IMG/VR virus record: IMGVR_UViG_3300017613_001185
Coordinates: 1 to 25,642 of that record
Direction: 5' to 3' (one strand)
Length of the DNA: 25,642 bases
Source: a virus
Positions 447-23,219 of the stretch are shown in pieces. A program made the position numbers and the translations under genes. The stretch's first letter is position 1. The number at the start of each line of letters is the position of its first letter. The notes beneath the pieces were generated by a model that was given only the letters and a program-made list of their open reading frames with translations, was not told the DNA's origin and made no database searches.

Positions 447-628
447 GTGTAACCATCTTAGGAAGTCACATTCGACTAATCAGGCCGGAGAAGATCAAAA
501 AACCTATCATCTTCAAGACCGATAGGCCTAGATGCAAGTATAATAAGAAACCTTCTTCGCTGATTAAAGTAAACATTAACTGGGCTAAAGTAACTATACC
601 GCCAGAGCCAACTTATTATTCACATTAG
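443..628 (+). CDS. Small basic phage protein of unknown function (61 aa)
   Basis: GAGGAGGTGAAGAA precedes the ATG, and the start overlaps the stop of the previous gene. The 61-residue protein is strongly basic (many Lys and Arg in RPEKIKKP and RPRCKYNKKP), so nucleic-acid or protein binding is possible, but no family is recognised. Its TAG stop (626-628) is partly made by the first two bases of the first dyad repeat at 627-651. Confidence 0.55.
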   Translation: MSVTILGSHIRLIRPEKIKKPIIFKTDRPRCKYNKKPSSLIKVNINWAKVTIPPEPTYYSH

Positions 629-651
629 ATCGTTCAATAATTGAACAGACT
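627..651. repeat. 25-bp dyad repeat, copy 1
   Basis: Core GTTCAA, centre TAA, TTGAAC; outer arms AGATC and AGACT. It matches the consensus half-site AGWYYGTTCAA on both arms. The AG forms the end of the upstream TAG stop, and the repeat ends 14 nt before the next ATG (666). It is a probable protein-binding site shared with nine other clear copies. Confidence 0.85.
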
Positions 652-665
652 TAGGAGACAAGAAG

Positions 666-974
666 ATGACAAAAGAAGATAGAAATGAACTAGAGCTTAG
701 AAAGGCTAATGCAAAGAGTAGGTGCAATGAAACTTATTCGACTATTCAACAACTAAAACACATCCTCGCTGCTTATTATAAGGACTACTACCATTGGAGA
801 GAAAGGTACTTGGAGGCAGATAGGAAACTTGCATTGGAAGATAAGTTGAGGATAGTTTCAGTTGGAGAGAAGAAAGAGAAGAAAACTCTAGAACTCGCAG
901 TTAAGTTAACAAAGGCACAGATAATTGCTATTGCAGAGGAACTTGGAGTTTTGGAGGAGTTGAACTTTGATTAA
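666..974 (+). CDS. Predicted coiled-coil phage protein (102 aa)
   Basis: An SD (TTAGGAGACAAGAAG) lies between the dyad repeat and the ATG. The product is highly charged and almost entirely helical in character. Residues 1-70 have spaced Leu, Ile and Ala with many Glu, Lys and Arg, which suggests a coiled coil. The C-terminal 35 residues (AVKLTKAQIIAIAEELGVLEEL) look like a further amphipathic helix. No enzyme motif is visible and function is unknown. It lies in a run of small early genes, directly downstream of dyad repeat copy 1. Confidence 0.6.
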   Translation: MTKEDRNELELRKANAKSRCNETYSTIQQLKHILAAYYKDYYHWRERYLEADRKLALEDKLRIVSVGEKKEKKTLELAVKLTKAQIIAIAEELGVLEELNFD

Positions 975-1000
975 TCTTTAAAGAGGAAAGGAGAAAAAGA

Positions 1001-1180
1001 ATGGAAGCTAAACTTAAGTTCAAACTAACCAGGCCTGCAAAGAAAAGTGGAGGTGACCGCTATGAGTATGGAGTGAAGGGGGATAAAGATTTCATGACCG
1101 TCTACCTACCACAGTGGATCTCAAGACCAGAGGAAATTCCACTTAAGTCAATAAATCTAATTATAACTACCGAAAAATAA
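1001..1180 (+). CDS. Very small phage protein of unknown function (59 aa)
   Basis: A short reading frame with an SD (GAGGAAAGGAG) 6-8 nt before the ATG at 1001 and a TAA at 1178-1180. The product starts MEAKLKFKLTRPAKKSGG and continues with alternating hydrophobic residues, including DFMTVYLPQW and PLKSINLII. It reads like a small beta-rich fold. It fills the gap between the 666-974 gene and the promoter at 1219. It is 59 codons long and easily missed by length cut-offs, but SD quality and position make it believable. No family recognised. Confidence 0.6.
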   Translation: MEAKLKFKLTRPAKKSGGDRYEYGVKGDKDFMTVYLPQWISRPEEIPLKSINLIITTEK

Positions 1181-1218
1181 GAGTGTTGTACCTATACGTA
1201 ATATTGCCAAATTTAATG

Positions 1219-1247
1219 TTGACAATCAACAAAACTACGTGTATAAT
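1219..1247 (+). promoter_or_regulatory. Consensus sigma70 promoter
   Basis: TTGACA at 1219-1224 and TATAAT at 1242-1247, separated by exactly 17 bp. Both hexamers match the bacterial housekeeping consensus perfectly. Transcription should start near 1254, giving a leader of about 50 nt before the gene at 1305. It is the strongest promoter visible in the window and would be read by host RNA polymerase without phage factors. Confidence 0.88.
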
Positions 1248-1304
1248 GTTTTTTATCGTTTGAGATCGTAACCATTAACCTTTTAAAAGTCAGGAGGAAC
1301 AAAG

Positions 1305-1703: not shown

Positions 1704-1730
1704 GATCGTTTATCTTTTCCTTTATGCTGG

Positions 1731-1767
1731 CCCTGGAGTCTTTATCCACGAGGACTCCAGGGTTTTT
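1731..1767 (+). terminator. Intrinsic (rho-independent) terminator
   Basis: A perfect 10-bp stem, CCCTGGAGTC (1731-1740) with GACTCCAGGG (1753-1762), has a 12-nt loop and is followed at once by five T residues (1763-1767). It ends the single-gene unit that begins at the promoter at 1219. Confidence 0.9.
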
Positions 1768-1772
1768 CTTCC

Positions 1773-1801
1773 ACTTAAAATGTACGTTTTAGGGATATTA
1801 T
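1773..1801 (+). promoter_or_regulatory. Possible weak promoter overlapping a dyad repeat
   Basis: TATTAT at 1796-1801 could be a -10 box, but the matching -35 region (ACTTAA, 1773-1778) is poor. Because the strong terminator lies just upstream, the next genes need a new promoter or readthrough. If this promoter is real, dyad repeat copy 2 (1806-1830) would cover the start site, an ideal place for a repressor. The segment also holds AAAATGTACGTTTT (1777-1790), which recurs inverted near 7154. Confidence 0.3.
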
Positions 1802-1805
1802 GAAT

Positions 1806-1830
1806 AGACCGTTCAAAAATTGAACAATCT
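1806..1830. repeat. 25-bp dyad repeat, copy 2
   Basis: Outer arms AGACC and AATCT, centre AAA, core GTTCAA/TTGAAC intact. It lies between the terminator at 1731-1767 and the SD of the gene at 1852, ending 21 nt before that start codon. Confidence 0.85.
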
Positions 1831-1851
1831 AAACGAAAGGAGAAAAAGAAG

Positions 1852-2956: not shown

Positions 2957-3266
2957 ACAAGATAAGAAACTCGAATTCTACATAGCTGGAGTACAACACC
3001 ACGAGAGTTACAAATGCCAAGATTCGATGGCCGTAGATGACTTCCTCGCTATGGTCCTTGAACCTACCAATAAGTTCGATCCTAATGCAATCAGACTTGA
3101 ATGGCGTGATACTATGATCGGCTACGTCCCAGCTCGGCTTAGTGCAGAAGTAACTGCTTTGGTAATGAGTGATGAGGAAAATCTTTGGGCCTGCAAACTC
3201 ATCGAACTGAACAAAGATGAGAAACCCTGGGAGAGATTCAAAGTCCTAATTGAGGAGGTAAACTAA
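2949..3266 (+). CDS. Stand-alone HIRAN-domain protein
   Basis: The 105-aa protein is nearly all HIRAN domain. A FYIAGVQHH strand opens it, followed by LEPTNKFDPNAIRLEW (the family's typical N-x-x-D-x-N-A segment) and IGYVPARLSAEV. HIRAN domains, best known from HLTF and Rad5, bind DNA ends or 3' ends at stalled forks. Many phages encode the domain alone. It starts 8 bp inside the ligase gene and its stop overlaps the next ATG (TAATG). The linkage to ligase and the recombination genes suggests a role in repair or replication-fork processing. The domain assignment is firm; the role is inferred. Confidence 0.75.
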   Translation: MTEQDKKLEFYIAGVQHHESYKCQDSMAVDDFLAMVLEPTNKFDPNAIRLEWRDTMIGYVPARLSAEVTALVMSDEENLWACKLIELNKDEKPWERFKVLIEEVN

Positions 3267-3682
3267 TGAAATTTGTCTACTGTGCAGAATGTGGAGAGAG
3301 ATTTGAAGTCCTCTACAAGGCTTCGCAAGGAAAGGTCTTCCATATAATAAGGCCTCACAAGTGCTCTGGAATTGTTAAGGGAGAAGTGACAGAAAAGATG
3401 AGGGAGAATGAACTACAACCAATCCCTCCTGAACCTAACATTAAATCTATGTTCGACTCGTTTAAGTTTGTTCAAAAATTGAACGATCTTGAACCAAAAA
3501 TTGCAGAGCCAGAATCTATACCTGAGTCAATGGTTCAAGAAACTGGAGACAAGAGGAGCAAGGAACATCTACGGAAAGAATTAATAACCTCAAATGCTCC
3601 ACTTAACCTAATAAGCAATATTAAGAACCTTCCTACATCACAACCAGTAGGGGATATTAGCAAGGAACCGAAAGGAGATTAA
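3266..3682 (+). CDS. Small protein with possible N-terminal zinc-binding module (138 aa)
   Basis: SD GAGGAGGTAAAC, start overlapping the upstream stop. The N-terminus has YCAECGERFEV and then IRPHKCSG. That gives a CxxC pair plus His/Cys near residue 32, possibly a small zinc-binding knuckle. The rest (about 45-138) is proline- and charge-rich, low in hydrophobics, and probably disordered. Dyad repeat copy 3 (3465-3489) is embedded in frame and encodes FVQKLND, so the DNA site is accommodated in the disordered tail. Function unknown. A small DNA- or protein-binding adaptor is one possibility. Confidence 0.6.
   Translation: MKFVYCAECGERFEVLYKASQGKVFHIIRPHKCSGIVKGEVTEKMRENELQPIPPEPNIKSMFDSFKFVQKLNDLEPKIAEPESIPESMVQETGDKRSKEHLRKELITSNAPLNLISNIKNLPTSQPVGDISKEPKGD
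3465..3489. repeat. 25-bp dyad repeat, copy 3 (inside a CDS)
   Basis: Outer arms AGTTT and GATCT, centre AAA, core intact. It lies wholly inside the 3266-3682 gene, in the part encoding a presumably disordered tail. It shows that the site is maintained even within coding sequence. Confidence 0.85.
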
Positions 3683-3683
3683 G

Positions 3684-3992: not shown

Positions 3993-4014
3993 CAGATGAA
4001 AGGAGAAAAGATGG

Positions 4015-4317: not shown

Positions 4318-4321
4318 GAAA

Positions 4322-5460: not shown

Positions 5461-5651
5461 ACTGCCCTGACTGTAAAACTAAAATGACTATTGACTTCAT
5501 CGACCTCCCTGCAGACAAAAGTTACTTTGAGGTAGTCTTTAAATGCCTGAAGTGCAAAGCAACTTTCTTCGGGACAATTTACCGAGACCTTGACCAAGCA
5601 TCTAATGACGCAATCTGCGTTGAATGTGAGGAGAAAAAGAATGCCTTATGA
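5457..5651 (+). CDS. Small zinc-ribbon protein (64 aa)
   Basis: Start placed at 5457 (MNCPDCKTKMT), which has TGGAG 6 nt upstream and overlaps the nuclease stop as ATGA. An in-frame ATG four codons earlier has no SD. The protein has two CxxC pairs (CPDC near residue 3 and CLKC near 30), a classic zinc ribbon, plus a further CVEC near the C-terminus. Such small phage ribbons can bind nucleic acid or partner proteins, but the role here is unknown. Its 3' end overlaps the next gene's SD and start. Confidence 0.6.
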   Translation: MNCPDCKTKMTIDFIDLPADKSYFEVVFKCLKCKATFFGTIYRDLDQASNDAICVECEEKKNAL

Positions 5652-6471
5652 TCCAATGAAAGAACTAAAACGTGTAACTGACTATTACAACAACGACCCT
5701 CTACAAAAGCGTTTCTCTGCAATAATAACTGGAGAAACAAACACAGGTAAAACGTACCTCCTAAGGACTGCACGCTTCCCTATCCACGTAGACTCCTTTG
5801 ATCCTGGAGGAACTAAGTGCCTTCTCGACTTGGTCAGGAGGAAGGAAAATCCTAACGGGCAAATAGTAGTCGATTCCTCTTGGGAAACCGAAGATCCTTA
5901 CAACCCTAAGGCCTTCGCCGAGTGGAAAAAGACTATGGACCTACGCCTTTCCACAGGCTACTTCGACATGTTTGGAACTTATTGTCTTGACAGTTTAACT
6001 ACCTTCGGCAAGGCTGCAATGAACTATCAGCTCAACTTAGCGGGCAAGGCCGGAGATGTTCCTAGACATCGTTACGACTACAACCCACAAAAAGTTTTTA
6101 TGGAAAACTATATCCGTAAACTAATGAACCTTTCTTGTGACTTCATCATCACAGGCCACTTAACGGAGATTGAGGAACTAAGGCATGTAGACAAAAGCTC
6201 CGGCATAAAGACTTACGACACCAAGTACCGCCTTTACATAACCGGTCAAGCTGTCTTAACTATCCCTTTACTCTTCGACGAGATCTATACTATAATAGGG
6301 AGGGGCAACCCACCTAAGCGTGAGATGCTAATTGACTCTCTTGGCAAATACATAGCCCGTTCTCGACTAAAGCAGAAAGGGAAGTTAGGAGCGACTGAAG
6401 AGCCGGACATAAAGAAACTGTTAAAAAAGGCAGGGTTTGCGTGGGAGGACAAACCTAGATTGGAAGCTTAA
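5641..6471 (+). CDS. Sak4-like RecA-fold ATPase (AAA_24 type)
   Basis: Probable single-strand annealing or recombination ATPase acting on phage DNA. Start at 5641 (MPYDPMKELK) because GAGGAGAAAAAG lies directly upstream; the in-frame ATG at 5590 is inside the preceding gene without SD. In the 276-aa product, Walker A is GETNTGKT at 31-38 and Walker B is TYCLDSLT around Asp117. TGHL near 171 is in a sensor-like position. Length and motif spacing match phage AAA_24/Sak4 proteins, which commonly lie beside a Cas4-like nuclease and an SSB. That is the arrangement here. An alternative label is a generic AAA family ATPase. Its TAA stop provides the first base of dyad repeat copy 4. Confidence 0.8.
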   Translation: MPYDPMKELKRVTDYYNNDPLQKRFSAIITGETNTGKTYLLRTARFPIHVDSFDPGGTKCLLDLVRRKENPNGQIVVDSSWETEDPYNPKAFAEWKKTMDLRLSTGYFDMFGTYCLDSLTTFGKAAMNYQLNLAGKAGDVPRHRYDYNPQKVFMENYIRKLMNLSCDFIITGHLTEIEELRHVDKSSGIKTYDTKYRLYITGQAVLTIPLLFDEIYTIIGRGNPPKREMLIDSLGKYIARSRLKQKGKLGATEEPDIKKLLKKAGFAWEDKPRLEA

Positions 6472-6495
6472 GATCGTTCAAATCTTGAATGAACT
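6471..6495. repeat. 25-bp dyad repeat, copy 4 (one core mismatch)
   Basis: Outer arms AGATC and GAACT, centre ATC. The right core reads TTGAAT rather than TTGAAC, the only core mismatch among the ten clear copies. It begins at the last base of the Sak4-like gene stop and ends 32 nt before the next start codon. Confidence 0.75.
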
Positions 6496-6527
6496 AACCC
6501 AAAACACTTTAACCTATGGAGGTAACA

Positions 6528-7193: not shown

Positions 7194-7359
7194 CAATCTC
7201 CAACAATTAGTAGGCCAGGTGTGGGTGGGTAAGTTCTCTATATAGCCAGAGAACAGTTGATGTATAACTACTAGTTCGGGCTTGGGAGGCCAACAGGTAG
7301 AACGATATTACTTTGAAGAAAAATATCATTAGGTGCCAGGTGGTTGGTGTTGGAGATTG
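7194..7359 (+). ncRNA. Predicted structured RNA closed by a 12-bp long-range stem
   Basis: CAATCTCCAACA (7194-7205) is a perfect complement of TGTTGGAGATTG (7348-7359), closing a domain of about 166 nt. Inside are a 7-bp hairpin GTTCTCT/AGAGAAC (7233-7254), a nested hairpin GTTC/GAAC (7274-7303) containing TTGG/CCAA around GAGG, and GATATT/AATATC (7304-7327). There is no open frame of significance. The 3' strand of the closing stem merges with dyad repeat copy 5 and ends 36 nt before the ribbon-helix-helix-like gene, so it could be that gene's leader or a free phage RNA. I do not recognise it as a known riboswitch, ribozyme or large phage RNA. Strand is inferred from the flanking + genes. Confidence 0.5.
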
Positions 7360-7378
7360 TTCAATTATTGAACGAACT
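7354..7378. repeat. 25-bp dyad repeat, copy 5
   Basis: Outer arms AGATT and GAACT, centre TTA, core intact. It lies 17 nt before the start of the ribbon-helix-helix-like gene and shares its first six bases with the 3' strand of the RNA closing stem. The position suits autoregulation by the adjacent gene's product. Confidence 0.85.
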
Positions 7379-7395: not shown

Positions 7396-7638
7396 ATGTC
7401 TGAAGACTACAAACCAAAGTTCTCATTTGAAATAACTGAGGAGCAAAAAGTCCGTGCCAATCGACTTCTCTCCACCTATGGCTTACGCAAGAGTGTGTTC
7501 TCTGTGGTCTTAGACGACGTGCTTGACCTGATCGAGAAGCATGGTCAAGTGGTCATCGGCGTCATTCTTGACGGTGCCACTAAACCAAGAGAAATAATAC
7601 CTATTCTTGCCAAGGCAGAAAGGAAAGGTGAAGCATAA
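7396..7638 (+). CDS. Possible ribbon-helix-helix DNA-binding protein (80 aa)
   Basis: SD GAAAGGAGC lies before the ATG, with dyad repeat copy 5 directly upstream. Residues 7-50 run as a beta segment (PKFSFEIT), a helix (EEQKVRANRLLSTYG) and a second helix (RKSVFSVVLDDVLDLIEKHG). This strand-helix-helix order and length fit the Arc/MetJ ribbon-helix-helix fold, whose dimers bind short palindromes through the strand. The remaining 30 residues may form an oligomerisation tail. The fold call is by eye and the typical G-x-S/T turn between helices is not exact. If right, this is the leading candidate for binding the 25-bp dyad repeats. The next gene follows at once. Confidence 0.5.
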   Translation: MSEDYKPKFSFEITEEQKVRANRLLSTYGLRKSVFSVVLDDVLDLIEKHGQVVIGVILDGATKPREIIPILAKAERKGEA

Positions 7639-7854: not shown

Positions 7855-9168
7855 ATGCCTGACATTGATGTAGGCACCGTAGCAATGGTGTCGTTAGACG
7901 AGATAGAAGTCGGTGAACGTGCTAGGGAAGTAATGGGTGACTTGGATGGGCTGGAAGGTTCGATGAAAGAAAGCGGGCTGATCCAACCACTTGCGGTTAA
8001 ACACTATGGGGATGGAAAGTATTTACTCTTAGCAGGTGGACGTAGGTATCAAATATTAAGGAAGAACAGTGTAGAATCAATCCCTATTCGCATCTATCCT
8101 TCTGATATAACTGAGCTTGAGGTTAAGGTAATTGAACTTGCAGAAAACTTCTTTCGTAAGGACATGGAGCACTGGGAATTTGACAATCTAGTCCGTGAGA
8201 CTCACCAACTCCAACAAACAATCCACGGAGTCAAGGCACCTGGTCCTGGAAATCTTGGTTGGTCAGTTGAAAACACAAGCAAGATGATAGGTAAGTCTAA
8301 AGGCGGTGTATCAGATGCAATAAAGAGAGCTGAGGCACGAGACGCCTTTCCCGAACTCTTCGATCATTGCAAGACACAGAAGGATGCAACTAATGTACTG
8401 AAGAAAATGGACGAAGCAGTTATTAAGGAAGTCCTTGCACAAAAGATAGAACTTGGAAAGGCAAGTAATCAAGTTCAACAACTATCAAAATCCTTCGTCC
8501 TTGGAGATTTTTTTGAGAAGGTGAAGGAAATCCCAGATGGGATAATGCACTTGGTTGAGATAGACCCACCTTACTCAATCGACTTGAATAAGAAGAAGAA
8601 AAGTGGAGGTGAGTCACAGTATGTAAAGGAAGATTACAACGAAGTGGGTGTCCAAGACTACGACGACTTCCTGCTTAAAGTATTCAATGAGTGTTATCGA
8701 GTCATGGCTGACCACTCATGGTTAATCTGCTGGTTCGCACCTGAGCCTTGGTTCGATCAAGTATACATATCCCTATGCTCTGCTGGATTCCAAACTACTC
8801 GAATGTGCGGCATCTGGACTAAACCCTCTGGCCAATCAATGAGGCCTGAGATGTACCTCTCAAATTGCTACGAGATGTTCTTCTATGCATGGAAGGGCCG
8901 GCCTGCACTAAACAAACCAGGTCGTCTGAACCACTTCTCCACTCCTCCAGTTCCTGCAAACCAAAAGACTCACCCTACTGAGCGACCAGTTGAGTTGATG
9001 AAGGAAATTTACAACACCTTTGCCTTTCCTGGATCACGTGTCCTCATCCCCTTCCTTGGTTCAGGCAATGGACTGATAGCTGCGGACGAACTTGGGATGG
9101 CAGGCTTAGGATATGAACTTGGGAAAGGTTACAGGGATTCATTCTTGGTGAAGGTTTATGGAAAGTAA
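7855..9168 (+). CDS. ParB-like DNA-binding domain fused to a beta-class DNA methyltransferase
   Basis: A DNA-modification enzyme with its own ParB-type module. In the 437-aa product, residues 10-105 match the ParB/Srx N-terminal domain, with GGRRYQILR at 61-69 and ENFFRKDM at 97-104. Residues about 137-158 look like the ParB helix-turn-helix (SVENTSKMIGKSKGGVSDAI). The C-terminal half is a SAM-dependent amino-methyltransferase. Catalytic motif DPPY is at 237-240, HPTERP at 373-378 and the SAM-binding FLGSGNG at 400-406. The order IV before I is that of beta-class N6-adenine or N4-cytosine enzymes. No restriction gene is adjacent, so protection from host restriction or regulation is likely. 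The helix-turn-helix makes it the second candidate for binding the dyad repeats. SD CTCGGAGG is good. Confidence 0.85.
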   Translation: MPDIDVGTVAMVSLDEIEVGERAREVMGDLDGLEGSMKESGLIQPLAVKHYGDGKYLLLAGGRRYQILRKNSVESIPIRIYPSDITELEVKVIELAENFFRKDMEHWEFDNLVRETHQLQQTIHGVKAPGPGNLGWSVENTSKMIGKSKGGVSDAIKRAEARDAFPELFDHCKTQKDATNVLKKMDEAVIKEVLAQKIELGKASNQVQQLSKSFVLGDFFEKVKEIPDGIMHLVEIDPPYSIDLNKKKKSGGESQYVKEDYNEVGVQDYDDFLLKVFNECYRVMADHSWLICWFAPEPWFDQVYISLCSAGFQTTRMCGIWTKPSGQSMRPEMYLSNCYEMFFYAWKGRPALNKPGRLNHFSTPPVPANQKTHPTERPVELMKEIYNTFAFPGSRVLIPFLGSGNGLIAADELGMAGLGYELGKGYRDSFLVKVYGK

Positions 9169-9328
9169 AAAACGCCGCCCTTACATAAAACACAAAGCAG
9201 TCCAGGAAATCTTCAAAGAAAATCCTGATCTGCTTAAGAAACTAATCCATGAGGCTAAAAAGAACTTCCGCACTCCACCTGAGCAGTTAATCTACTACAC
9301 GTGGAAGTGTATAGACTTCATGGAATAG
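9158..9328 (+). CDS. Very small basic protein (56 aa)
   Basis: A short frame from ATG 9158 to TAG 9326-9328 that overlaps the methyltransferase end by 11 bp and has GGTGAAGG upstream. The product MESKKRRPYIKHKAVQEIF... is basic and helical, with a second helical part PEQLIYYTWKCIDFM. It fills the gap before the polymerase gene. The last two bases of its stop are the first bases of dyad repeat copy 6, as at copy 1. Function unknown. It is short, but position and coupling support it. Confidence 0.6.
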   Translation: MESKKRRPYIKHKAVQEIFKENPDLLKKLIHEAKKNFRTPPEQLIYYTWKCIDFME

Positions 9329-9351
9329 TTTGTTCAATAATTGAACGATCT
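9327..9351. repeat. 25-bp dyad repeat, copy 6
   Basis: Outer arms AGTTT and GATCT, centre TAA, core intact. It lies between the stop of the 56-aa gene (sharing AG) and the SD of the DNA polymerase gene, ending 11 nt before its ATG. This is the tightest spacing to a start codon. Confidence 0.85.
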
Positions 9352-11901: not shown

Positions 11902-13170
11902 ATGCAAAGACTCAAGCGGAAATTACCCAACTGGATCGAAGCGTTTATGCTCTACACTGAGAACACTGAACCTCCAACTTTATTCCGCAAGTGGACTGCA
12001 ATCTCAACTATCGCAAGCGCACTTCAGAGGAAGGTAAGAGTCGAATGGGGGACTGACTTAATTTTCTACCCTAACCTCTACATCATTCTTGTCGGCCCAA
12101 GCGCTACTGGAAAGGGCACAGCTATGACTCCTGCCCTTAACATAATGGATGAGATACCTGCAGTCAAACTATCTGCCCAAGCTACTTCCCTCCAAGCATT
12201 AATCAGAAGGTTAAAAGAAAACAACTTAACCGACATAGACATGGAAACCGCTGAGCAGATCTTCCACACCTCCATGACAATCTTCTCCGAAGAATTCACA
12301 GTCTTCCTCGGCTACCATAATCAAGAACTAATGGCTGCGCTGTGCAACTGGTACGATTGCAAGAACGTCTGGGAGTACGATACTATCTCACGAAACAAGG
12401 AAAAGATAATAGGTGTATGGGTCAATCTAATCGGAGGCACTACCCCTGACTTAATCCGAAGCTCCCTCCCTGTCGAGTCAATAGGTGGTGGCTTGACTAG
12501 TCGAATAATCTTCATCTTCGAAGAGACAAAAGGAAAACTAGTTGTCCTTCCCACAAAGACTCAAAGGGAACTAGAGCTCCGATCTTACCTAATAGAAGAC
12601 CTTGAAAAGATCTCCCTTCTTTCCGGTAGCTACCGATGGACACCTGGATTCGTAGACATCTGGACTGACTTCTGCCACGAGTGTGAGAACAGCCCTCCCT
12701 TCTATGATCCTAAGTTCGATGGATACCTTGGACGTCGCAGATCTCATGTGATGAAACTTTCAATGGTCATAAGTGCTTCGCACGGCAGGCATGACTATGT
12801 GTTATCAGGAGATGACTTGGAGGAAGCTATAATACTTTTGAAGGAAGCCGAAGTTAAAATGGGCCTCGTGTTTAGAGGCGTTGGCAAGAGCGATATGTCC
12901 GAACATCTACACAAAGCTATGGTATTTCTTGAGAATTCAAGAACAAGTGAAGTCCCCTTCTATCAATTTGCTAGGTACTTCGGAAATGATATGGATAAGT
13001 TTACAATGGAAAGAGTGCTCTTCACTCTTGAAGCAATGAAGAGGATTTCCTATCAAAGGAAACCAATGGCAGATGATATGATTAAGATACTTGACATGGA
13101 GATTGGAGATCGTTCAAAAATTGAACAGTCTAATCCACCTGAACTCTTGGAGTCTCCCCATAAGTCCTAA
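11902..13170 (+). CDS. DUF3987-like helicase/primase-type ATPase
   Basis: Probable replicative helicase partner of the polymerase. The 422-aa product has an N-terminal segment with WIEAFMLYTENTEPPTLFRKW and ISTIASALQRKV, as is usual in DUF3987 and phage helicase-like proteins. Walker A is GPSATGKGT at 65-73, a Walker B-like TIFSEE ends at Glu130-Glu131, and IGGTTPDLI near residue 175 is in a sensor position. No primase TOPRIM domain is seen, so it is the helicase half only. SD AAAGGGG lies 4 nt before the ATG. The C-terminal codons contain dyad repeat copy 8, and the last 41 bp overlap the convergent giant virion gene. Alternative: a DnaB-like or other AAA+ loader. Confidence 0.72.
   Translation: MQRLKRKLPNWIEAFMLYTENTEPPTLFRKWTAISTIASALQRKVRVEWGTDLIFYPNLYIILVGPSATGKGTAMTPALNIMDEIPAVKLSAQATSLQALIRRLKENNLTDIDMETAEQIFHTSMTIFSEEFTVFLGYHNQELMAALCNWYDCKNVWEYDTISRNKEKIIGVWVNLIGGTTPDLIRSSLPVESIGGGLTSRIIFIFEETKGKLVVLPTKTQRELELRSYLIEDLEKISLLSGSYRWTPGFVDIWTDFCHECENSPPFYDPKFDGYLGRRRSHVMKLSMVISASHGRHDYVLSGDDLEEAIILLKEAEVKMGLVFRGVGKSDMSEHLHKAMVFLENSRTSEVPFYQFARYFGNDMDKFTMERVLFTLEAMKRISYQRKPMADDMIKILDMEIGDRSKIEQSNPPELLESPHKS
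13107..13131. repeat. 25-bp dyad repeat, copy 8 (convergent junction)
   Basis: Outer arms AGATC and AGTCT, centre AAA, core intact. It is inside the helicase gene 3' end (encoding RSKIEQSN). On the other strand its AG helps form the TAG stop of the giant virion gene. It sits exactly where rightward and leftward transcription meet. No T-tract follows on either side, so it is not a classical terminator. Confidence 0.85.
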
Positions 13171-16100
13171 TCCTATTAACCTCATCTCTAAAACTTTTAC
13201 CTAAAACTCCTTTAGCCCTGGACACTATACTATATTCATTCCAAAGTTGGCGTTCTTCTTCTGGACTAGCCTTATCAAGTCTATCTACAAACACCTTCGC
13301 CTTCGCCTCCACTGGCAACCCTTTCATTCTTCTCCAAAAAGATTTCTCCGGAAGCTTCTTAATCGCATCTTCAAACTTGAATCTATCAACTAACCGATCA
13401 TAAGTATCTTTGTCCTTAAACTTCCTTGCATAGTCAAATACTTCACTCCTTTTAACATTCTTCTCATACAAGTAACCTTCAACAAGTGCATCAAATCCTC
13501 TGTTCTCGGTAAACCTTTTTATAACAAACTCTTCCTCTTTCTCATCAATCACTCTAGCATGTTTTGAGTAAGGATTAGTCACACCAAAGAACCTCTTAAT
13601 CACAGGGATTCTTGCAAGAGCCATTGCAAGGTGCTGTTGCTTCTGGCTTTCAGGAAGATCACCTAACAATTCTTCATAACCTTGGCCAAGTAGATAAGAC
13701 CACGTAGATCCACTTGTAACAAGTTCTTCAATAGCATACTTCATCCTCTCCGGCGAAAGGCCGGTGAACTTCCCTACATCAATCATTGCTTGTGGAGTCT
13801 GTCCAGGTACATATTCCTCTCTGCTCTCTGGCCAACTGAAAGGTTTCTCTGTCTTCCTCCAAATATCCTCGTTCATCCAGAAGTCCTTGTTAGTCATGTA
13901 ACCAAGTGCACCACTAACTGTTGGAGGAAGTTCACCTACACCTACAGGTGAAAGTTCCTTGAGTGAATCAACTACCCGATTAACATCTATCTCATTCCCC
14001 AGCCACTTGTCAGCACAGGCCTCGAAGAAGGTTTTAAAAAACTTCTGTCCAGGATCAAGAGGGATCTTAATATAAGGATACCTAGTCTCACCCTTCTCAT
14101 CTACAAACCCAAAGTCATCACCTAAAGGTAAACAAAGATTATTCTGCATATCTATATTACCTTGCAAATTCTTAAAAGTCTCTGGATGCATCTTACTCAT
14201 GGCTATATAGACACCAGTAGTCAATGCTGCAAGTTGTGATAACTTATACGTAGACGAAAGGGCTGATCCGCTACCTGGTTTGAATGACCTAGCAAGTCCC
14301 CTCGTACCTTGAATGGCAGCATTAAGATAAGGAAAAGCATTATCCAATGCCTTTGCGACTCCTCCACCTTGGCCAAAGTCCATATAGTCCCTAGCTGCAA
14401 ACGTAGCTTCCTGAGGAGTCTTACCCTTCCTAATCATCCTCTCCCTGATCGCAAGTCTAGTCATAATCTCTGACGTTTCACCAAAGTAACCTAAGAAATC
14501 ATAAGCTGCATCAAGTGGGCCTTCTATATGCCTGCCCCTTTGAAACAACCTCCCTTGGTGTACCAAGAACTCCATCCCACCACCTTCATTGATGTAGTCC
14601 TTATAACGTCCCTTCTTCAACGCTGCATCTGAAAACACTGTCGCTAAGTCCCTCCCTATCTGCAGCCCGAAGATTGGAAGGTTAGGATTGTAAATAGGTT
14701 TCCACTTACCTCCTTCATAACTCCTTGCAGTGTACCAAGTATGCATCACATCCCTTGGTAAATTAGCTACTGCAAATCCCCACTCAATTCCAGTTGCAAA
14801 AGTCCTAAGCACTGGTGAACCTGATGCATACCTTAAGAATTGACTAAACCTGTAAGAAACCTCAGGTGAACTTGTAATCCATTCCTTTGACATTTCAGGT
14901 GAGAGGTAAAGTGCCTTGCGTTTCCCTTCTTCATACATAAAGATCCTGTTCCAGCCGCTTGGAATCTTATCACCTTTTTCCTCTTTCACCCGAACAAAAG
15001 GGTTCTCCTTATCCTTCCTCGCTACCTCAAGCAACCCTTTATTCGCTTCATTGTTCATAATTCTTCCATAAGCCCTATTAAACACCTCAAGGGCCATGAT
15101 CTCACTCGAGGGTTCATACAAGTCCGTATCCCTACCACGTGCAAGAGCTTCAATACCTGAATCATGGACAGTCCTTTTCCTTGCACCTATCTTAGCACTA
15201 TACCTTTTGTCGAAAATCTCTACCAGTTTTATCCTACGATACTTGTGTGAGCTTAGGTCTTTGAACTCCTGTTCACTAATCAGGCCTGCATCAAGCTGAT
15301 CCTTAAGTGGCTTCTTCATCCATTCAAAGTAAGCCTTAGTCATCCCACGCAAGTTCCTTGCTTGTCCAGGCGAAAGATGTTCCATACTCTCAAACAATCC
15401 ACTGTACTCTATAGCATGGTCAGGAACCTTCCCATCACTACTTATATCTTTCGGGTACTTAAACTTTCCAGGCAGCTTATACTTCCCTATATCAATCATC
15501 CTATCGGCTAGGATCAACTTGTCAAGAATCCTTCTCTCATTCTGCGAAAGTCCTCTATAAATCTCCTTCCTCATCTGATCAAGCATCATAGCAGCACGGG
15601 ACGAGGCACCCTTTGCAAGGTACATCTTTTGTACTATCTTATACCCTTCCTCACCAAGCTCCTTTAACATATCTCTACGAATATTTCCAGAGCGGTCTAT
15701 TACTGTTCGGTTAATCCCTTCGCGTAAAATTCTTGTAATTGCAGTAGGTTTAAACTTCTTCATCCCTCTTGCTCTGTCCACATAGCTGGAGAATTTCTTT
15801 GCTCCTGCAATTATTTCTTTTGCTGCTGCATCTACTGGGATTCCAGAGTAAAGTTCCGTTCCTGGCTCAACCTTCAATTTTCCTGTTGGTTTATAGTATG
15901 AAGGAAGAGCTCCCAAGGCCCTTACCTTAGCCGTACGTGTATCTATACCCGATAGTTCTTCTTCCATCTTGTACCTATTAAGATCAATGACGGCCTCCTG
16001 ACCAAGAAGCTCTTTGACCTTCTTTATCACTTCCGTCCAGGCCTTATCAAAGTCCTTATAGGTTCTCGATCTACCAAGTTCATTAGCAGCCTCTCTTATG

Positions 16101-17824
16101 TAGTCAAATGCTTCGTTTAGTGCAATTTCCTCAGTCGGCTCAACCTTCCTCTCTGCCTTCCTAGCCCAAATAGCTGCCTCGCTTGCCACCTCACCGAACT
16201 GTTGAATCTCTGCAAGTGACATACCTTCAAATGCACTACTCACTCTCGACTTCCCAGACCCTTGTTCCTTTGCAGCAATTGCTATGTCACTTAGAAATTC
16301 CCTGGCTTCACTGATGTTGAACTCTTCTCTACCATCCAGCCAGGCATTTACCTCTGAAGTAAGCCTAGTTAAAATGGAGTGAGGATCATCTAACTTTTCA
16401 AGCGGTCCTAGTCTTTCTAAAAGAAAGTTAGTCTTCTCTGATTTCTCACGAAAAGGGGAGTTTTCAGTGGAGAGTTCAATAGGTTCCCTTGTACCTGTTT
16501 GGAGATCTAGGTCTGTAACAGGTTCTTCAACCTTCTTAGGTTTACTAATCTTCGGCGCCTTACCCTGCTTAGTCTCTATCGCCTCTCTCATCCCCTGAAT
16601 AGCCGTGCCAATGAACATCTTCTTTTGTGGATCAGGTTCTGTATTATACCTCTCCTGCTCCTCTTTCATCAGCCTATCAAGTTCAACAACATCTTCCTTA
16701 CTCAACGTCTTACCAAAATCATCTGCTCTGCCAGAGAATCCCTTTTCCTCTGGTTTAACCTCTTCATAGAACCTATCTTTCAGTGCAGTAGTTTGTTCAA
16801 TTATTGAACGATCTTTTCCTCTCAACGCCTTGTCTATCTGAACATCTGCAATATCTCTCTGAGGTTGTTTGGCCTTCTTAATCTGCGTTCTCTTGGAACC
16901 TAAGTCTTCCTCAATCATCTTTCCATAATCAAGATTCTTCTGCACTTCAATAGACTCAAGTTCAAGCTGTTTCTTCTCCATGTCGAGGATCTTCTGCTGC
17001 ACAGCTTTAACGGCTTCATCTGGAGTCATACTTAATAACTTTTCACGTTTAGTTACTTGCTCCGCCCTCCTAACAATCTCTTCAGCCTTAGCCGTAACCT
17101 CTGCTTTACTCCCTTTATAAATCCTACCAAGAGCAACCAATCCACCTATGTCACCTGCAAACTTACTCAATCCTCTAACATTTGGATAGTCTTTAAAACT
17201 CTCTGATTCAGCAACTGCTTTACCAAGTGCAGATAATGCAAGAGCAGGAGCCATAGCCGTTGAACCAACTAATTGACTTTCTGGAGTTGGAGGACCTAAC
17301 AAAGGCTCTACCATGTTCTTACTCCACATCTCCATACTCTCATTCATACCATCACTTGCGGCATCATAGAGTTCACTCAAGTCAAAAGGCCTGCCCATCC
17401 GCTCTAACATTTTCTGTCCAGCAGCTAAAATCCCAAGACCAAACCCAGGCAATGACATTACAAACTCAGCACCACCTCTGACAATCTCCATAGGATTCTT
17501 AGCAAGGTCTAAATACCCACTAAGTGTCTCAGTAATTTCTTGCTTAAACCTATCAGTTACAATAGGATTGGACTTCATCTCATCGTACTCTTCAACACTT
17601 CTTCCAAGCGCTGCTTCCATTCCTATATCAAAGATAGAAGGAGTCTTAGGTTCTTCAGGCTCAGCAGTTGGTTCAACTACTGGTTCCTCAACCTGAGCAG
17701 GTTGACTAGGCAGAGCAAACATCTGGTCAGTCAAACTAACTCCTCCAGAACCTTCAAACATCTGATCAGTTAACGACTTAGGTTTTCCATCTTGAAACAT
17801 CTGGTCAGTTAAACTAGTTGGCAT
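13130..17824 (-). CDS. Giant internal virion/ejection protein (about 1564 aa, LPD38-like region)
   Basis: Likely the largest internal core protein, ejected with the DNA, in the place of T7 gp16. Start chosen at 17824 (MPTSLTDQMF) because GTGAGG lies 6 nt upstream; an ATG at 17848 has no SD. The N-terminus has three copies of SLTDQMF, then a Pro/Glu-rich linker and a hydrophobic stretch around residues 120-150. Long charged helical regions follow. At about 1010-1170 are ANLPRDVMHTWYTA, ARDYMDFGQGGG and PYLNAAIQGTRGL, which resemble the large polyvalent-protein domain LPD38 of podophage giants. A second hydrophobic patch follows. No lytic transglycosylase or polymerase motif was recognised. Dyad repeat copy 9 lies in frame inside it. 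It overlaps the upstream gene by 11 bp. Confidence 0.75.
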   Translation of the reverse strand: MPTSLTDQMFQDGKPKSLTDQMFEGSGGVSLTDQMFALPSQPAQVEEPVVEPTAEPEEPKTPSIFDIGMEAALGRSVEEYDEMKSNPIVTDRFKQEITETLSGYLDLAKNPMEIVRGGAEFVMSLPGFGLGILAAGQKMLERMGRPFDLSELYDAASDGMNESMEMWSKNMVEPLLGPPTPESQLVGSTAMAPALALSALGKAVAESESFKDYPNVRGLSKFAGDIGGLVALGRIYKGSKAEVTAKAEEIVRRAEQVTKREKLLSMTPDEAVKAVQQKILDMEKKQLELESIEVQKNLDYGKMIEEDLGSKRTQIKKAKQPQRDIADVQIDKALRGKDRSIIEQTTALKDRFYEEVKPEEKGFSGRADDFGKTLSKEDVVELDRLMKEEQERYNTEPDPQKKMFIGTAIQGMREAIETKQGKAPKISKPKKVEEPVTDLDLQTGTREPIELSTENSPFREKSEKTNFLLERLGPLEKLDDPHSILTRLTSEVNAWLDGREEFNISEAREFLSDIAIAAKEQGSGKSRVSSAFEGMSLAEIQQFGEVASEAAIWARKAERKVEPTEEIALNEAFDYIREAANELGRSRTYKDFDKAWTEVIKKVKELLGQEAVIDLNRYKMEEELSGIDTRTAKVRALGALPSYYKPTGKLKVEPGTELYSGIPVDAAAKEIIAGAKKFSSYVDRARGMKKFKPTAITRILREGINRTVIDRSGNIRRDMLKELGEEGYKIVQKMYLAKGASSRAAMMLDQMRKEIYRGLSQNERRILDKLILADRMIDIGKYKLPGKFKYPKDISSDGKVPDHAIEYSGLFESMEHLSPGQARNLRGMTKAYFEWMKKPLKDQLDAGLISEQEFKDLSSHKYRRIKLVEIFDKRYSAKIGARKRTVHDSGIEALARGRDTDLYEPSSEIMALEVFNRAYGRIMNNEANKGLLEVARKDKENPFVRVKEEKGDKIPSGWNRIFMYEEGKRKALYLSPEMSKEWITSSPEVSYRFSQFLRYASGSPVLRTFATGIEWGFAVANLPRDVMHTWYTARSYEGGKWKPIYNPNLPIFGLQIGRDLATVFSDAALKKGRYKDYINEGGGMEFLVHQGRLFQRGRHIEGPLDAAYDFLGYFGETSEIMTRLAIRERMIRKGKTPQEATFAARDYMDFGQGGGVAKALDNAFPYLNAAIQGTRGLARSFKPGSGSALSSTYKLSQLAALTTGVYIAMSKMHPETFKNLQGNIDMQNNLCLPLGDDFGFVDEKGETRYPYIKIPLDPGQKFFKTFFEACADKWLGNEIDVNRVVDSLKELSPVGVGELPPTVSGALGYMTNKDFWMNEDIWRKTEKPFSWPESREEYVPGQTPQAMIDVGKFTGLSPERMKYAIEELVTSGSTWSYLLGQGYEELLGDLPESQKQQHLAMALARIPVIKRFFGVTNPYSKHARVIDEKEEEFVIKRFTENRGFDALVEGYLYEKNVKRSEVFDYARKFKDKDTYDRLVDRFKFEDAIKKLPEKSFWRRMKGLPVEAKAKVFVDRLDKASPEEERQLWNEYSIVSRAKGVLGKSFRDEVNRIRTYGETPRVQVD
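16790..16814. repeat. 25-bp dyad repeat, copy 9 (inside a CDS)
   Basis: Outer arms AGTTT and GATCT, centre TTA, core intact. It is fully inside the giant virion gene, about 1 kb downstream of its start, where it encodes DRSIIEQT in the same frame as copy 8. No gene start is near, so its role does not need a promoter or SD. Confidence 0.85.
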
Positions 17825-19052
17825 ATCTAACCTCACTGGTCTTCCCATCAGGCCAAGTTACGACAAATACAAAGGTCCGGCCTTCAACTCTAGTCTTATT
17901 ATAATCAATCTTCCCACCAGCTCCAGTAATCTTACTGATAATAAACTTCTCTTTCTCAGCAATAGCTGCCTTATCCTGTTCTGATGGGTCTAATGCAAAC
18001 AACCTTCTCTGAACATCGTCACTGTTAATATACTTCTCAACATCTGATGTAAGACCTTTAGGATCAGTGAAGTATTTCTTAGCCTTAATATCGGCCTTCT
18101 TTTCACCACGTTCGACTATCTCACCAATATTAGTAGCTCCGGCCTTTGCCAAATCCTCTGCAGCCTTCTTCAGTTCAGGATCTGCCATAGCAGCCCTAAG
18201 GAATTTTTCCCTTGACGTGGGCTCCAGGTTCTCCCATTCACGTTGAGACATAAACTCCTCTCCACGTTGCCTGGCTGCTTCTCTAGCTACTATATATTCC
18301 TTAGACTTGATAGGAAGACTTTTATATTCCCTTAGACTATACCCACTAATGAATGGTTGATCAAGTCTATCACCTCTCTCAATCTCTCCAATCCTTGCCT
18401 TTGACTCCTCTATCTGCTGTTTCCTATGACGATCAATTGATTCAAGCTGTCTCTGTCTAAAGGTCTGATCAGCTACATCATTCAAACTCTTCTGTCTAAG
18501 AGCCTGAACACCTGTTGCACCACTAAGCGCTTGCGACACATCTGCCGCTGTCAGCCCTGCTAAGTCAGCACCACTTAGAGGACTAGCGGAAGGGTTTAAG
18601 TAATGACTTCTTTCCATCAACTGAGAGGGTGAAGAGATAGATGAATTAGAGGCCTCAGGTACACTAGGCGTATATGAAGCATCAACAGACCCAGAAGCAG
18701 TCATTCCAGAGCCCTTAGCAGGATCAACAGATCCAAGTTCAGAACCAACTCCTCCATACATCTCAGATGGAGCATTGATAGTAGTCTTGTCCTTACCTAA
18801 TTTAACATCTCCACCACCTGCAAGGATCTCTTTCAACATTTTCATATAATACTCATTAGCCTTAGCCTTACTCTGAGCACCTATATTCTGCTGTGTTATA
18901 GCGTTAAGTGCAGGAGCCACAGGCTCACCTTGTTGCATAGCACTCCCAGCACCTGACAGGTAAGACAGGAAAAGTCTATTTTGTAACAAGTTACTCATTA
19001 TCCCAGGCTCACCACCAGAAGCTATGGAAGCCGAACTTTCATAATTAGCCAT
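17814..19052 (-). CDS. Ejection-type internal virion protein (412 aa)
   Basis: Middle member of three consecutive ejection-type genes. SD ATGGAGGATT precedes the ATG at 19052. The first 190 residues are Ser/Ala/Gly/Gln-rich and low in charge (TQQNIGAQSKAKANEYYMKM is typical). Residues about 190-330 are highly charged and probably coiled coil (RQRQLESIDRHRKQQIEESK). The C-terminus has a small beta-like end (GRTFVFVVTWPDGKTSEVRY). Such low-complexity, helical internal proteins match the place of T7 gp15 or P22 gp16/gp20 equivalents. The role is inferred from composition, size and order, not from a diagnostic motif. Confidence 0.6.
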   Translation of the reverse strand: MANYESSASIASGGEPGIMSNLLQNRLFLSYLSGAGSAMQQGEPVAPALNAITQQNIGAQSKAKANEYYMKMLKEILAGGGDVKLGKDKTTINAPSEMYGGVGSELGSVDPAKGSGMTASGSVDASYTPSVPEASNSSISSPSQLMERSHYLNPSASPLSGADLAGLTAADVSQALSGATGVQALRQKSLNDVADQTFRQRQLESIDRHRKQQIEESKARIGEIERGDRLDQPFISGYSLREYKSLPIKSKEYIVAREAARQRGEEFMSQREWENLEPTSREKFLRAAMADPELKKAAEDLAKAGATNIGEIVERGEKKADIKAKKYFTDPKGLTSDVEKYINSDDVQRRLFALDPSEQDKAAIAEKEKFIISKITGAGGKIDYNKTRVEGRTFVFVVTWPDGKTSEVRYAN

Positions 19053-19066: not shown

Positions 19067-20071
19067 TTACATAAATCCAGAAGCTGCACCAAGAACTGCA
19101 CCTATTGCAGTTCCCCATCCAGGCATTATCATTGATCCAGCTGCCGCACCTGACAAAGCTCCACCAATTACAGACTGAGTTTGTGAAGGTCCTTTTCCAG
19201 CCCCTGGAGTTGCAGTACCACCACCTATTGCAGATAACAAATTAGCCCCATGCTGAAAGACTTCCAAATCCCAGAGACCATCAGCTTCAGCTATCTTCAT
19301 ATTAACGTCAACTTCTTCTTTATTCGCTACGATTTTAATCCTACTTCCTTCAATTGAAGTCTTCATATATCCTTCATACCAAGAAATTCTTTGTAGCATC
19401 ATTCGTATCATTTGATCAGAAGCACTAAGATTATTTTTAACAGCTTCTAGATCTTTAGATACATTAACCTTATCAACTTCAAGATGAAGCTTCTCATTTT
19501 CCACTCCAACATCTGCATTTTTAGTAGCTGCAGTCAATCTTAGCGCAGACTCGTGCTTTGCAAGTTCACGATTCCTAAATCCTTCAATGACTGCAGCGCC
19601 AAGAACAAAAGCAGAACTGGAGACAGCATTAATATCTAACATTCCAGACTGAAATCTTGGTAAGACTTTAATAGTTATCTCATCATCCAAGCTGTCAGCG
19701 AAGGCATCTACATCCGCATCTATCAGCGCTTCAGTGATCCCATCTACGTCAGTAGTATCAGGAATATCTGCAACGGCTACAGTTGCGCTAGCTAGGGCAT
19801 AGAAGGCTGTCCAATCTACGGCATCATCTAACCCCGCTAGTATATTAGAGAAGTTAGTTAAAGTTAATTCATAAGCTACAACATCAGCTGCTGGATCATA
19901 GGCAGTTATACCTGCCCAGGGTGAGGCACCATATGCTGCAGCTATTGCCGCAGTCATAGTCTCAACACCCATACCTCCAGCACCTAAAGTACCCTCATGA
20001 AACGTCCTCATGTAGTCAGGGTAGTCTACAACTCCACTACCACCACCGCCACCACCACTTGATCCACCCAT
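19067..20071 (-). CDS. Ejection-type internal virion protein with glycine-rich ends (334 aa)
   Basis: SD ATGGGAGATAAC precedes ATG 20071, with dyad repeat copy 10 15 nt farther upstream. The N-terminus is a Gly/Ser run (GGSSGGGGGGSG). Then come Ala- and Asp-rich helices (VVAYELTLTNFSNILAG), a charged central helix (ENEKLHLEVDKVNVSKDLEA), and a C-terminal glycine-zipper-like hydrophobic tail (IGGALSGAAAGSMIMPGWGT). The tail is of the kind used by T7 gp14 and P22 ejection proteins to enter membranes. It is first of the three internal proteins in gene order, as gp14 is in T7. The assignment is by architecture and position. Confidence 0.6.
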   Translation of the reverse strand: MGGSSGGGGGGSGVVDYPDYMRTFHEGTLGAGGMGVETMTAAIAAAYGASPWAGITAYDPAADVVAYELTLTNFSNILAGLDDAVDWTAFYALASATVAVADIPDTTDVDGITEALIDADVDAFADSLDDEITIKVLPRFQSGMLDINAVSSSAFVLGAAVIEGFRNRELAKHESALRLTAATKNADVGVENEKLHLEVDKVNVSKDLEAVKNNLSASDQMIRMMLQRISWYEGYMKTSIEGSRIKIVANKEEVDVNMKIAEADGLWDLEVFQHGANLLSAIGGGTATPGAGKGPSQTQSVIGGALSGAAAGSMIMPGWGTAIGAVLGAASGFM

Positions 20072-20073
20072 AG

Positions 20074-20550
20074 TTATCTCCCATTAAGATTGTTCAATAA
20101 TTGAACAGACTTGTCAACATCAAAAGAACATAAAGTAAACCTAGCTTCACCACCTAACTTCTTACACTTCTCAATCATATAAGGAACTTCTGTATAAGCA
20201 ATTATCTGACTACATTTTTCCCTCTTTGCAAACTTAGCAAGAGTCCCAATACCATTGAACCAACTTTGTCCATTAACATCTTCATAACCATAAAGACAGT
20301 AGATTAGAAGATTCTTTGTATAAGAAGCATCGTCGTAGAGTATTTGAGTTAGAACAACTCCTTCAAATATAGTTTCTTCACCTCTAGTATAAGAAGCCCA
20401 ACACTGGATCTTACCACTGAGACAGGACGATAGGACTCTGTTCATCTTATCTGGATGCTCTCCTATTACAGGAGGTAAGGATTGTTCTATCCCATACTTA
20501 ATAATATCCCAGAATTTAGCTATCTGATCTGGAAGAAGTCTTGTTAGCAT
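20074..20550 (-). CDS. GNAT-like small protein of the structural operon (158 aa)
   Basis: The 158-aa product looks like a small acetyltransferase fold. It has an N-terminal helix (PDQIAKFWDIIKYGIEQSLP), beta strands (IQCWASYTRGEETIFEGVVLTQIL) and a helix after a GIGTLAKFAKREKCSQIIAYTE segment that is near the acetyl-CoA loop position. T7-like phages often place a comparable protein (gp13-like) between tail and ejection genes, where it is thought to have a structural or assembly role. The usual Q/RxxGxG/A motif is not clean, so activity is doubtful. Its start overlaps the upstream stop (TAATG). Its 3' end carries dyad repeat copy 10 in frame. Confidence 0.45.
   Translation of the reverse strand: MLTRLLPDQIAKFWDIIKYGIEQSLPPVIGEHPDKMNRVLSSCLSGKIQCWASYTRGEETIFEGVVLTQILYDDASYTKNLLIYCLYGYEDVNGQSWFNGIGTLAKFAKREKCSQIIAYTEVPYMIEKCKKLGGEARFTLCSFDVDKSVQLLNNLNGR
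20087..20111. repeat. 25-bp dyad repeat, copy 10
   Basis: Outer arms AGATT and AGACT, centre TAA, core intact. It is in frame at the 3' end of the GNAT-like gene and 15 nt upstream (on the - strand) of the first ejection-protein start. It therefore serves both as coding sequence and as leader of the next gene. Confidence 0.85.
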
Positions 20551-21986: not shown

Positions 21987-22461
21987 CTTTACTTCCTTCT
22001 TCTAACTGGTCAATTAGAAAACTCTTAACTGTAGCTTCGCCTACATGAGGAGTCCATATGAAGGCTATCCAAACTTCGCAAAGCTTCTCTTCTTCATCAG
22101 CTGGGCTTACACTAACTGTCAAGCGATCTCCTGGTGAGACTTCTAAATTAGGCTCAAGTGTTATCTGATTCCTGTTTGCTATGAAGACTTTGGACTCTCC
22201 ACCGAAGTCATTCTCTATGCCTACTGTAACAACTATGCCGGCCTTAATCTTCTTATCAAACCTAATCAATCCCTTATTAATAACTCCCTTTGCAGAAAAC
22301 ATATACTTCAGCACAGGCCCACATACATTATCTCCTGTTAAACAGTTAGAGATTGGGTAAGGAGTTATCATTGCAGAGGTTGATTTCTTGACAGCTTTAC
22401 GAATAAGTCTTCCTGTTATTAATTCAAGTTTCTTAACTCTCTTTTTAATTTCTATGTCCAT
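21979..22461 (-). CDS. Structural-operon protein of unknown function (160 aa)
   Basis: The 160-aa product starts with a short basic helix (EIKKRVKKLELITGRLIRKA). It continues with beta-rich sequence (AGIVVTVGIENDFGGESKVF, LEPNLEVSPGDRLTVSVSP, CEVWIAFIW) and an acidic tail. It sits between an adaptor-like and a nozzle-like gene with overlaps or 1-bp gaps on both sides, so it is almost surely a virion or assembly protein. A small beta-sandwich neck, decoration or fibre-attachment protein with an N-terminal anchoring helix is plausible. I recognise no family. Confidence 0.55.
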   Translation of the reverse strand: MDIEIKKRVKKLELITGRLIRKAVKKSTSAMITPYPISNCLTGDNVCGPVLKYMFSAKGVINKGLIRFDKKIKAGIVVTVGIENDFGGESKVFIANRNQITLEPNLEVSPGDRLTVSVSPADEEEKLCEVWIAFIWTPHVGEATVKSFLIDQLEEGSKDA

Positions 22462-22462
22462 A

Positions 22463-23182
22463 TCAGTCCTCGATCTGATCTACTTCAGCAATTAGTTCTT
22501 CAACCAAGTCCATTCCAAGTCCTGTCGTATCAGTTCGAATGGAAGCTTCCCAGTCATTTACACCTTGTGTATTCCTATTAACGATCTCAAGTGCCCTCAT
22601 GCCTGCCATTATCAAGGTCATTGGATGAGCACCTGACCAGAAGTTAGTATCAGTCTCATCAACTAGTTCCATTGAGTAATAAAGTCCCTTTATATCAAGA
22701 GAGGTCTTCTCGTCCACAGGTACATTAAGAATAACCGAATTATACTCATGAGTGCCTGCAGGTACATCTACCCATCCAACAAAGGATTCAATGTCTGCAA
22801 CTTCTGCGTCTTCTGGGATATGCCTGGTCAGACAAGGTGAGTAATAAAGTGGAGTCCCAACTGTACGTGAAGCAGGAAGGCCTGTCAAATAACCTGTTAT
22901 CATCTTTTGCAGATCAACCTTCTCCAACTGCCAACGAGCAGTGGAAGACATAGCCCAGACTTCCTTAATCGCTCGACAGTGAGGAAATGAAGCACTAAAC
23001 CCTCCTATCTCAACAAACCTAAAACACGAAGCCCAGGACTTTTGCGTCTCATCCAAGCGATCAAGAAACTTCCGCCCTTCATTAATAAAAAAGTCAGCAC
23101 CATTGTCTGACCCGTCCTCATTAACCAGATCATGTCGACCTGAGATGTCACGAAACTTTGTTCGTACCTGAAGTAAATTCAT
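22463..23182 (-). CDS. Probable head-tail adaptor protein (239 aa)
   Basis: Start placed at ATG 23182 (MNLLQVRTKFRD), preceded closely by GGTGAGG. A GTG at 23242 would extend it by 20 codons through a hairpin and dyad repeat copy 11, which is less likely. The sequence runs TKFRDISGRHDLV, NGADFFINEGRKFLDRL, then a beta-rich middle and a helical end (MTLIMAGMRALEIVNRNTQG). It resembles phage adaptor (gp4/gp6-like connector) proteins that join portal to tail. Its place just after the capsid gene fits. The family match is by pattern, so an unrelated neck protein cannot be excluded. Confidence 0.55.
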   Translation of the reverse strand: MNLLQVRTKFRDISGRHDLVNEDGSDNGADFFINEGRKFLDRLDETQKSWASCFRFVEIGGFSASFPHCRAIKEVWAMSSTARWQLEKVDLQKMITGYLTGLPASRTVGTPLYYSPCLTRHIPEDAEVADIESFVGWVDVPAGTHEYNSVILNVPVDEKTSLDIKGLYYSMELVDETDTNFWSGAHPMTLIMAGMRALEIVNRNTQGVNDWEASIRTDTTGLGMDLVEELIAEVDQIED

Positions 23183-23194
23183 ATCCTCACCATT

Positions 23195-23219
23195 AGATTG
23201 TTCAATTTTTGAACGAACT
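23195..23219. repeat. 25-bp dyad repeat, copy 11
   Basis: Outer arms AGATT and GAACT, centre TTT, core intact. It lies 12 nt upstream (on the - strand) of the adaptor start at 23182, in the gap after the capsid gene and next to a hairpin. Confidence 0.85.

Follow-up and report, generated by a model that had tools for sequence, protein, structure and literature searches.

The recurrence of a 25-bp dyad along a phage genome raises the question of which factor reads it and what the sites are for. The window analysed here is a 25.6-kb fragment of a virus genome, not the whole phage. The plus strand of its early half encodes a ligase, an exonuclease, an AAA ATPase, a ParB-methyltransferase, a uracil-DNA glycosylase-DNA polymerase A and a DUF3987 protein, and the late half lies on the minus strand. 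The polymerase (9363-11873) is a single protein with an N-terminal domain of the uracil-DNA-glycosylase superfamily (PF03167, residues 11-152). An earlier note on this DNA had listed ten dyads, and their coordinates and sequences proved exact (Table 1). The pattern AGWYYGTTCAANNNTTGAACRRWCT finds ten matches in the window, nine of them perfect and that at 6471 with one mismatch, against a chance expectation of 0.00 in 100 dinucleotide shuffles. The outer AG...CT, described as kept, is seen in all ten, and eight of them have A/A or T/T at the symmetric third positions, as claimed. The "decayed copy" reported at 11857 did not hold up, as only its inner 15 bp are matched, with two mismatches and without AG...CT. 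Since 1.74 chance matches are expected at that stringency, it was left out of the count as an eleventh dyad.

Table 1. Dyads of the window and the protein features considered with them.
Feature	Position	Strand	Remarks
Dyad 1	627..651		AGATCGTTCAATAATTGAACAGACT; ATG at 666 starts 14 nt downstream
Dyad 2	1806..1830		21 nt upstream of ATG at 1852
Dyad 3	3465..3489		Within gene 3266-3682
Dyad 4	6471..6495		One mismatch; end of 5590-6471, 20 nt upstream of ATG at 6516
Dyad 5	7354..7378		17 nt upstream of ATG 7396 (first gene of ParB-methyltransferase cluster)
Dyad 6	9327..9351		11 nt upstream of DNA polymerase ATG (9363); site kept in most relatives
Dyad 7	13107..13131		DUF3987 gene end, convergent junction; site kept in several relatives
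Dyad 8	16790..16814		Within very long late gene 13130-17848
Dyad 9	20087..20111		15 nt upstream of start codon (20071) of minus-strand gene 19067-20071
Dyad 10	23195..23219		12 nt upstream of likely minus-strand start ATG at 23182
Small conserved protein	7396..7638	+	First gene of ParB-methyltransferase cluster; possible partner
ParB_N (CTPase-fold)-HTH-beta-class DNA N6/N4 methyltransferase fusion, 437 aa	7855..9168	+	Proposed dyad binder
HTH of fusion, residues 136-165	8260..8349	+	Helices 138-145 and 149-164 in the model; covariation with core at residues 144-158

A search with the DNA polymerase yielded 37 related viral contigs. Twenty-one related records were read in long pieces and searched for repeated palindromes without the window's motif. 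Each of 20 metagenomic relatives (contigs of 30-52 kb) carries 14 to 24 dyads (10 to 24 with the window included), all in a constant frame, AGWYY...RRWCT, of 25 bp with a 3-bp centre; the twenty-first record (G018) has a smaller set in a CT frame. Dyad sets drawn from shuffled genomes have roughly half the information content. Within the frame, the core is phage-specific: GTTYAA, GTTAAW, ATTAAA, CATTAA, ATAAA, ATTTA, GTTTTR, YCAA or CRA. While the core differs, the positions of the sites are largely kept among relatives, namely before the polymerase gene, at the DUF3987 gene end, in the very long late gene and before several structural genes. The earlier proposal had been staked on finding the motif in relatives, at positions conserved with the flanking genes; dyads are indeed present there and many positions are kept. 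The dyad inside gene 3266-3682 is retained, with differing cores, in 13 of the 17 genomes having the gene. In the 13 genomes its codon position hardly varies, and in the ATTTA phage it falls in another reading frame. Therefore, it is the DNA that is kept and not the peptide. The relatives are metagenomic contigs, among which only Desulfofustis phage MD01 is known to be complete.

The two halves of the dyad do not behave as the arms of an RNA hairpin. Within genomes, they were concordant in 142 of 317 cases at position 3 (173 expected) and in 146 of 356 at position 5 (173 expected), and over all variable positions 616 cells were concordant against 695 expected under independence. A pooled test of the W positions (177 versus 175) had at first suggested independence, whereas the within-genome test shows an excess of difference. 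Since the arms agree less than independence predicts, RNA pairing between them is not selected and, if anything, perfect symmetry is avoided. An RNA hairpin signal or terminator was thus rejected, as compensatory pairing was not found. Outside the 25 bp, the flanks hold nothing conserved but ribosome-binding purines, with no -35/-10 elements, and for this reason a promoter was also rejected. The absence of pairing covariation, the unconserved flanks and the covariation with the HTH of one protein described below support the suggestion that the dyads are bound as DNA by a dimeric protein and do not act as an RNA signal.

To find the reader of the dyads, proteins of 23 genomes (gene calls from an in-house script) were clustered, and 8,596 ten-column windows from 30 conserved families were compared with the dyad core, corrected for polymerase distance. 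The top of the scan was the peptide of the in-gene dyad itself (fam27), a trivial positive control. The best non-trivial window was the HTH of the ParB_N-methyltransferase fusion, with a partial r of 0.61. The fusion gene has no dyad inside, so its covariation is not of the trivial kind seen in fam27. Among 43 non-redundant homologues, residues 144-158 covaried with the core at a partial r of 0.52 in the AG clade (n=33) and 0.45 in all; 0 of 2000 permutations reached this covariation, a P value that is optimistic, as the homologues are related and the genomes not independent. The peak lies at residues 142-153, where the AF2 model puts the turn and then the beginning of the second HTH helix (149-164). 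By comparison, the methyltransferase domain in these proteins hardly followed the core (raw r 0.10-0.16). Specifically, VTDAS or ITGAS occurs in all four ATTAAA phages and mostly SKA[ST] in GTTYAA phages, with G005 (SPAT helix, GTTYAA core) as an exception. By eye, GKSK (145-148) of the window's fusion aligns with G170-K171-S172-R173 of ParB, whose residue 173 has been proven to set specificity between parS and NBS (PMC7383237). Covariation of sequences, however, can be indirect.

Whole-protein distance correlation was too blunt for this purpose, giving the DUF3987 gene as the best family, and the window scan resolved the matter. The control-region family fam24 was rejected as binder because two near-identical phages, G016 and G019 (L097-L099, L106-L108), have the same dyads and ParB HTH and differ in their fam24 N-termini. 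In these, the N-terminal halves differ and the C-terminus is the same, which suggests a swapped domain. The small protein of the cluster was also set aside, its best window reaching only 0.43. It is the upstream neighbour of the ParB-methyltransferase in nearly all genomes and has a strand-helix-helix look, by eye a ribbon-helix-helix-like pattern; examined as a possible KorA-like locking partner, it gave no significant PDB match in a fold search.

The fusion carries Pfam domains PF02195 (1.8e-9) and PF01555 (6e-18), and its PDB sequence matches are Spo0J/ParB/Noc and methyltransferases. In Foldseek searches with the AF2 model (mean pLDDT 78), Noc and ParB came up as matches of the first half and CcrM-type methyltransferases as matches of the second. 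Both domains are in one protein, which makes it a ParB-CTPase-fold-methyltransferase fusion, and the model places the methyltransferase where ParB would have its C-terminal domain. A homologue scan returned matches down to 41% identity. Among 85 fusions, regular expressions found the GxRR box in 84, ENxxRxD in 75, the PPY-type motif in 84 and FxGSG in 80; the nucleotide-binding and methyltransferase motifs appear intact in nearly all of them.

In a more distant clade, CT stands where the first clade has AG. This clade includes MD01, the only named close relative, whose set the first dyad finder missed and a gapped-palindrome count recovered. MD01 has nine dyads of its own, GCTATGTCCCAAnTTGGGACATAGC, in the CT frame, against 0.75 expected, and its fusion has the second type of helix, matching these dyads as expected. 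After the recognition helix, IKR-type residues go with AG and IKL-type residues with CT, and nine of ten CT-frame sets have a non-KR pattern; the exceptions are L122 (CT frame with KR) and L171 and L182 (AG call with LQL/LVL). This split is largely phylogenetic and weighs less than the core covariation. Furthermore, three dyad patterns were run blindly against the whole viral collection, and 50 of the 52 records found encode proteins of the same phage group (exceptions 50011_000416 and 29183_000326). Outside the fully read set, the fusion is encoded by nine of ten records of at least 30 kb, in some of them truncated where the contig ends. The CT records found by DNA alone have fusions without KR wherever the HTH stretch is readable. 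Two ATTAAA records of the blind scan carry VTDAS, both already in the analysed set. Microcystis phage Mel-JY34, which encodes a distant ParB-methylase, showed no recognisable dyads, and thus the rule does not hold for every ParB-methylase fusion.

Because their code changes together with its recognition helix, the dyads are very probably parS/O_B-like sites of the phage's own ParB-HTH-methyltransferase fusion. From the sequences compared here, we are highly confident that the fusion is the protein they belong to, and only a shade less so that this is the best explanation of the data as a whole. Through its ParB-type HTH, the fusion dimer would recognise both half-sites; like ParB and KorB, it would then close into a nucleotide-dependent clamp and move off the site along the DNA, taking the methyltransferase domain with it. 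With the sites expected on the phage genome only, methylation, transcription control or both might thereby be put on phage DNA and not on host DNA. We infer clamp-carried methylation from ParB and KorB biology (PMC11790492, PMC12704722) and from the anatomy of the fusion.

As to the purpose of the sites, their placement gives two kinds of hint. On the one hand, sites are spread evenly over both the early and the late halves, with a spacing more even than the gene-aware null in 21 of 21 genomes. Site density is 0.225 per kb in the long late gene, about five times the 0.041 per kb of other genes, and at least one dyad lies inside the long gene in 16 of the 20 genomes having it. Even spacing, together with dyads in a long gene that offers no gaps, suggests genome-wide coverage. 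The chances are about even that modification of the phage's own genome is the main purpose. More tentatively, and with somewhat less than even probability, the system may mark its own genome by sequence address: clamps loaded at some 10-24 sites would slide and methylate phage DNA everywhere and host DNA not at all, and the addresses would diverge so that each clamp loads only its own genome.

On the other hand, about half of the sites lie 8-25 nt upstream of a start codon, and the same sites and protein might instead exert global transcription control in the manner of KorB, with methylation secondary or tuning the binding. Like O_B, the dyads are many, dispersed, palindromic and near gene starts. 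Intergenic sites ending at most 30 nt before a start codon number 132, against 59 expected from the available gaps, a null that is imperfect since a site itself creates a gap. A site also precedes the fusion's own cluster (7354 in the window) and several relatives' copies of this cluster, and O_B sites act at 4-10 bp or more than 1 kb from promoters (PMC11790492). However, the even spacing and the sites deep in the long late gene are unlike promoter operators, and no -35/-10 or other flank is conserved. This role is possible, though we lean against it.

It is quite improbable that the dyads are stoperators like those of mycobacteriophage L5, bound by an immunity repressor distinct from the fusion. 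Cluster A phages do have many dispersed genome-specific sites that coevolve with a protein (PMC6550527). In contrast, the present dyads are symmetric rather than 13-bp, asymmetric and oriented, and no other family covaries better than the fusion, the trivial control aside. Furthermore, no integrase, resolvase or ParA (by PF13614) was found in 18 near-complete relatives, and MD01 is predicted to be strictly lytic (PMC10370329), which makes both lysogeny and partition unlikely. Very improbable, too, is a reading by the terminase small subunit or some other phage protein with which ParB covaries passively. A terminase window did reach a partial r of 0.58, but it is a helix ahead of the predicted HTH and not the recognition helix, whereas the peak of the fusion falls exactly at the helix known to read parS, with its own methyltransferase domain as control. 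Promoters or host-factor sites might account for the half of the sites just upstream of start codons, and some phages are known to contain host CtrA sites, according to one report (PMC9437464); yet the lack of any conserved promoter element in the flanks and a code that differs between related phages and tracks a phage protein make this highly unlikely. Hardly credible is a dispersed centromere for plasmid-like ParABS partition, in spite of the ParB_N and HTH domains and the parS-like half-sites (GTTYAA versus TGTTTCAC), as no ParA was found, the ParA-contact motif LGxGL is missing in 85 of 85 fusions, the sites are evenly spread and not clustered, and a methyltransferase takes the place of the ParB C-terminal domain.

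Reading the dyads as sites of the fusion brings them close to several known systems. KorB of plasmid RK2 is likewise a ParB-family CTPase clamp with an HTH and a global plasmid regulator acting at O_B sites near or far from promoters (PMC11790492). In contrast to the fusion, KorB has no methyltransferase and works with KorA as partner, and O_B is 16 bp, whereas the phage dyads measure 25 bp around a 3-bp centre and are distributed evenly over the genome of a phage that lacks lysogeny genes. Chromosomal ParB-parS and Noc-NBS share ParB_N plus HTH, a palindromic site and HTH-set specificity, and Noc-NBS also the dispersed sites (PMC7383237). They differ by a 16-bp site, a ParA or membrane partner and a C-terminal dimerisation domain instead of a methyltransferase; moreover, theirs is a single, stable code, and that of the phage dyads diversifies rapidly. 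The stoperators of cluster A mycobacteriophages (PMC6550527, PMC9283540) are many, dispersed and genome-specific and coevolve with their protein, but they are asymmetric 13-bp sites of a monomeric immunity repressor in temperate phages. Of the analogies drawn in the earlier note, multiple parS sites thus came close, the best candidate binder being of the ParB family, while stoperators stood as a pattern of distribution and failed on the symmetry of the sites and on the missing integrase, ParA and resolvase.

The same architecture class comprises the phage ParB-CTPase-N6/N4 methyltransferase fusions (PMC12704722) and the ParB-methylase Bce_0392 (PMC5512222), the latter reported as a nonspecific nickase. 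Such fusions are phage-enriched, and a 2025 paper lists them as a class with no known function (PMC12704722). In the open-access PMC literature we found no DNA target sites described for them, in keeping with the impression that the palindromic set looked undescribed. Our study now supplies candidate sites for some 43 non-redundant fusions, and the natural matched and mismatched protein-site pairs make the function of the fusion directly testable. Besides, they amount to a dense natural archive of joint changes in specificity between a ParB-type HTH and its dozens of sites, and the system may let a virus direct DNA modification to its own genome.

Two further observations concern the late gene and the relatives. 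Three tandem 39-bp repeats (17713-17812) encode SLTDQMF where the very long late protein begins. Contigs L188-L191 (~45-48 kb) are assigned to GTDB MAGs of WOR-3, Clostridia and others, and resemble entire phages of the present group that were binned with bacteria.
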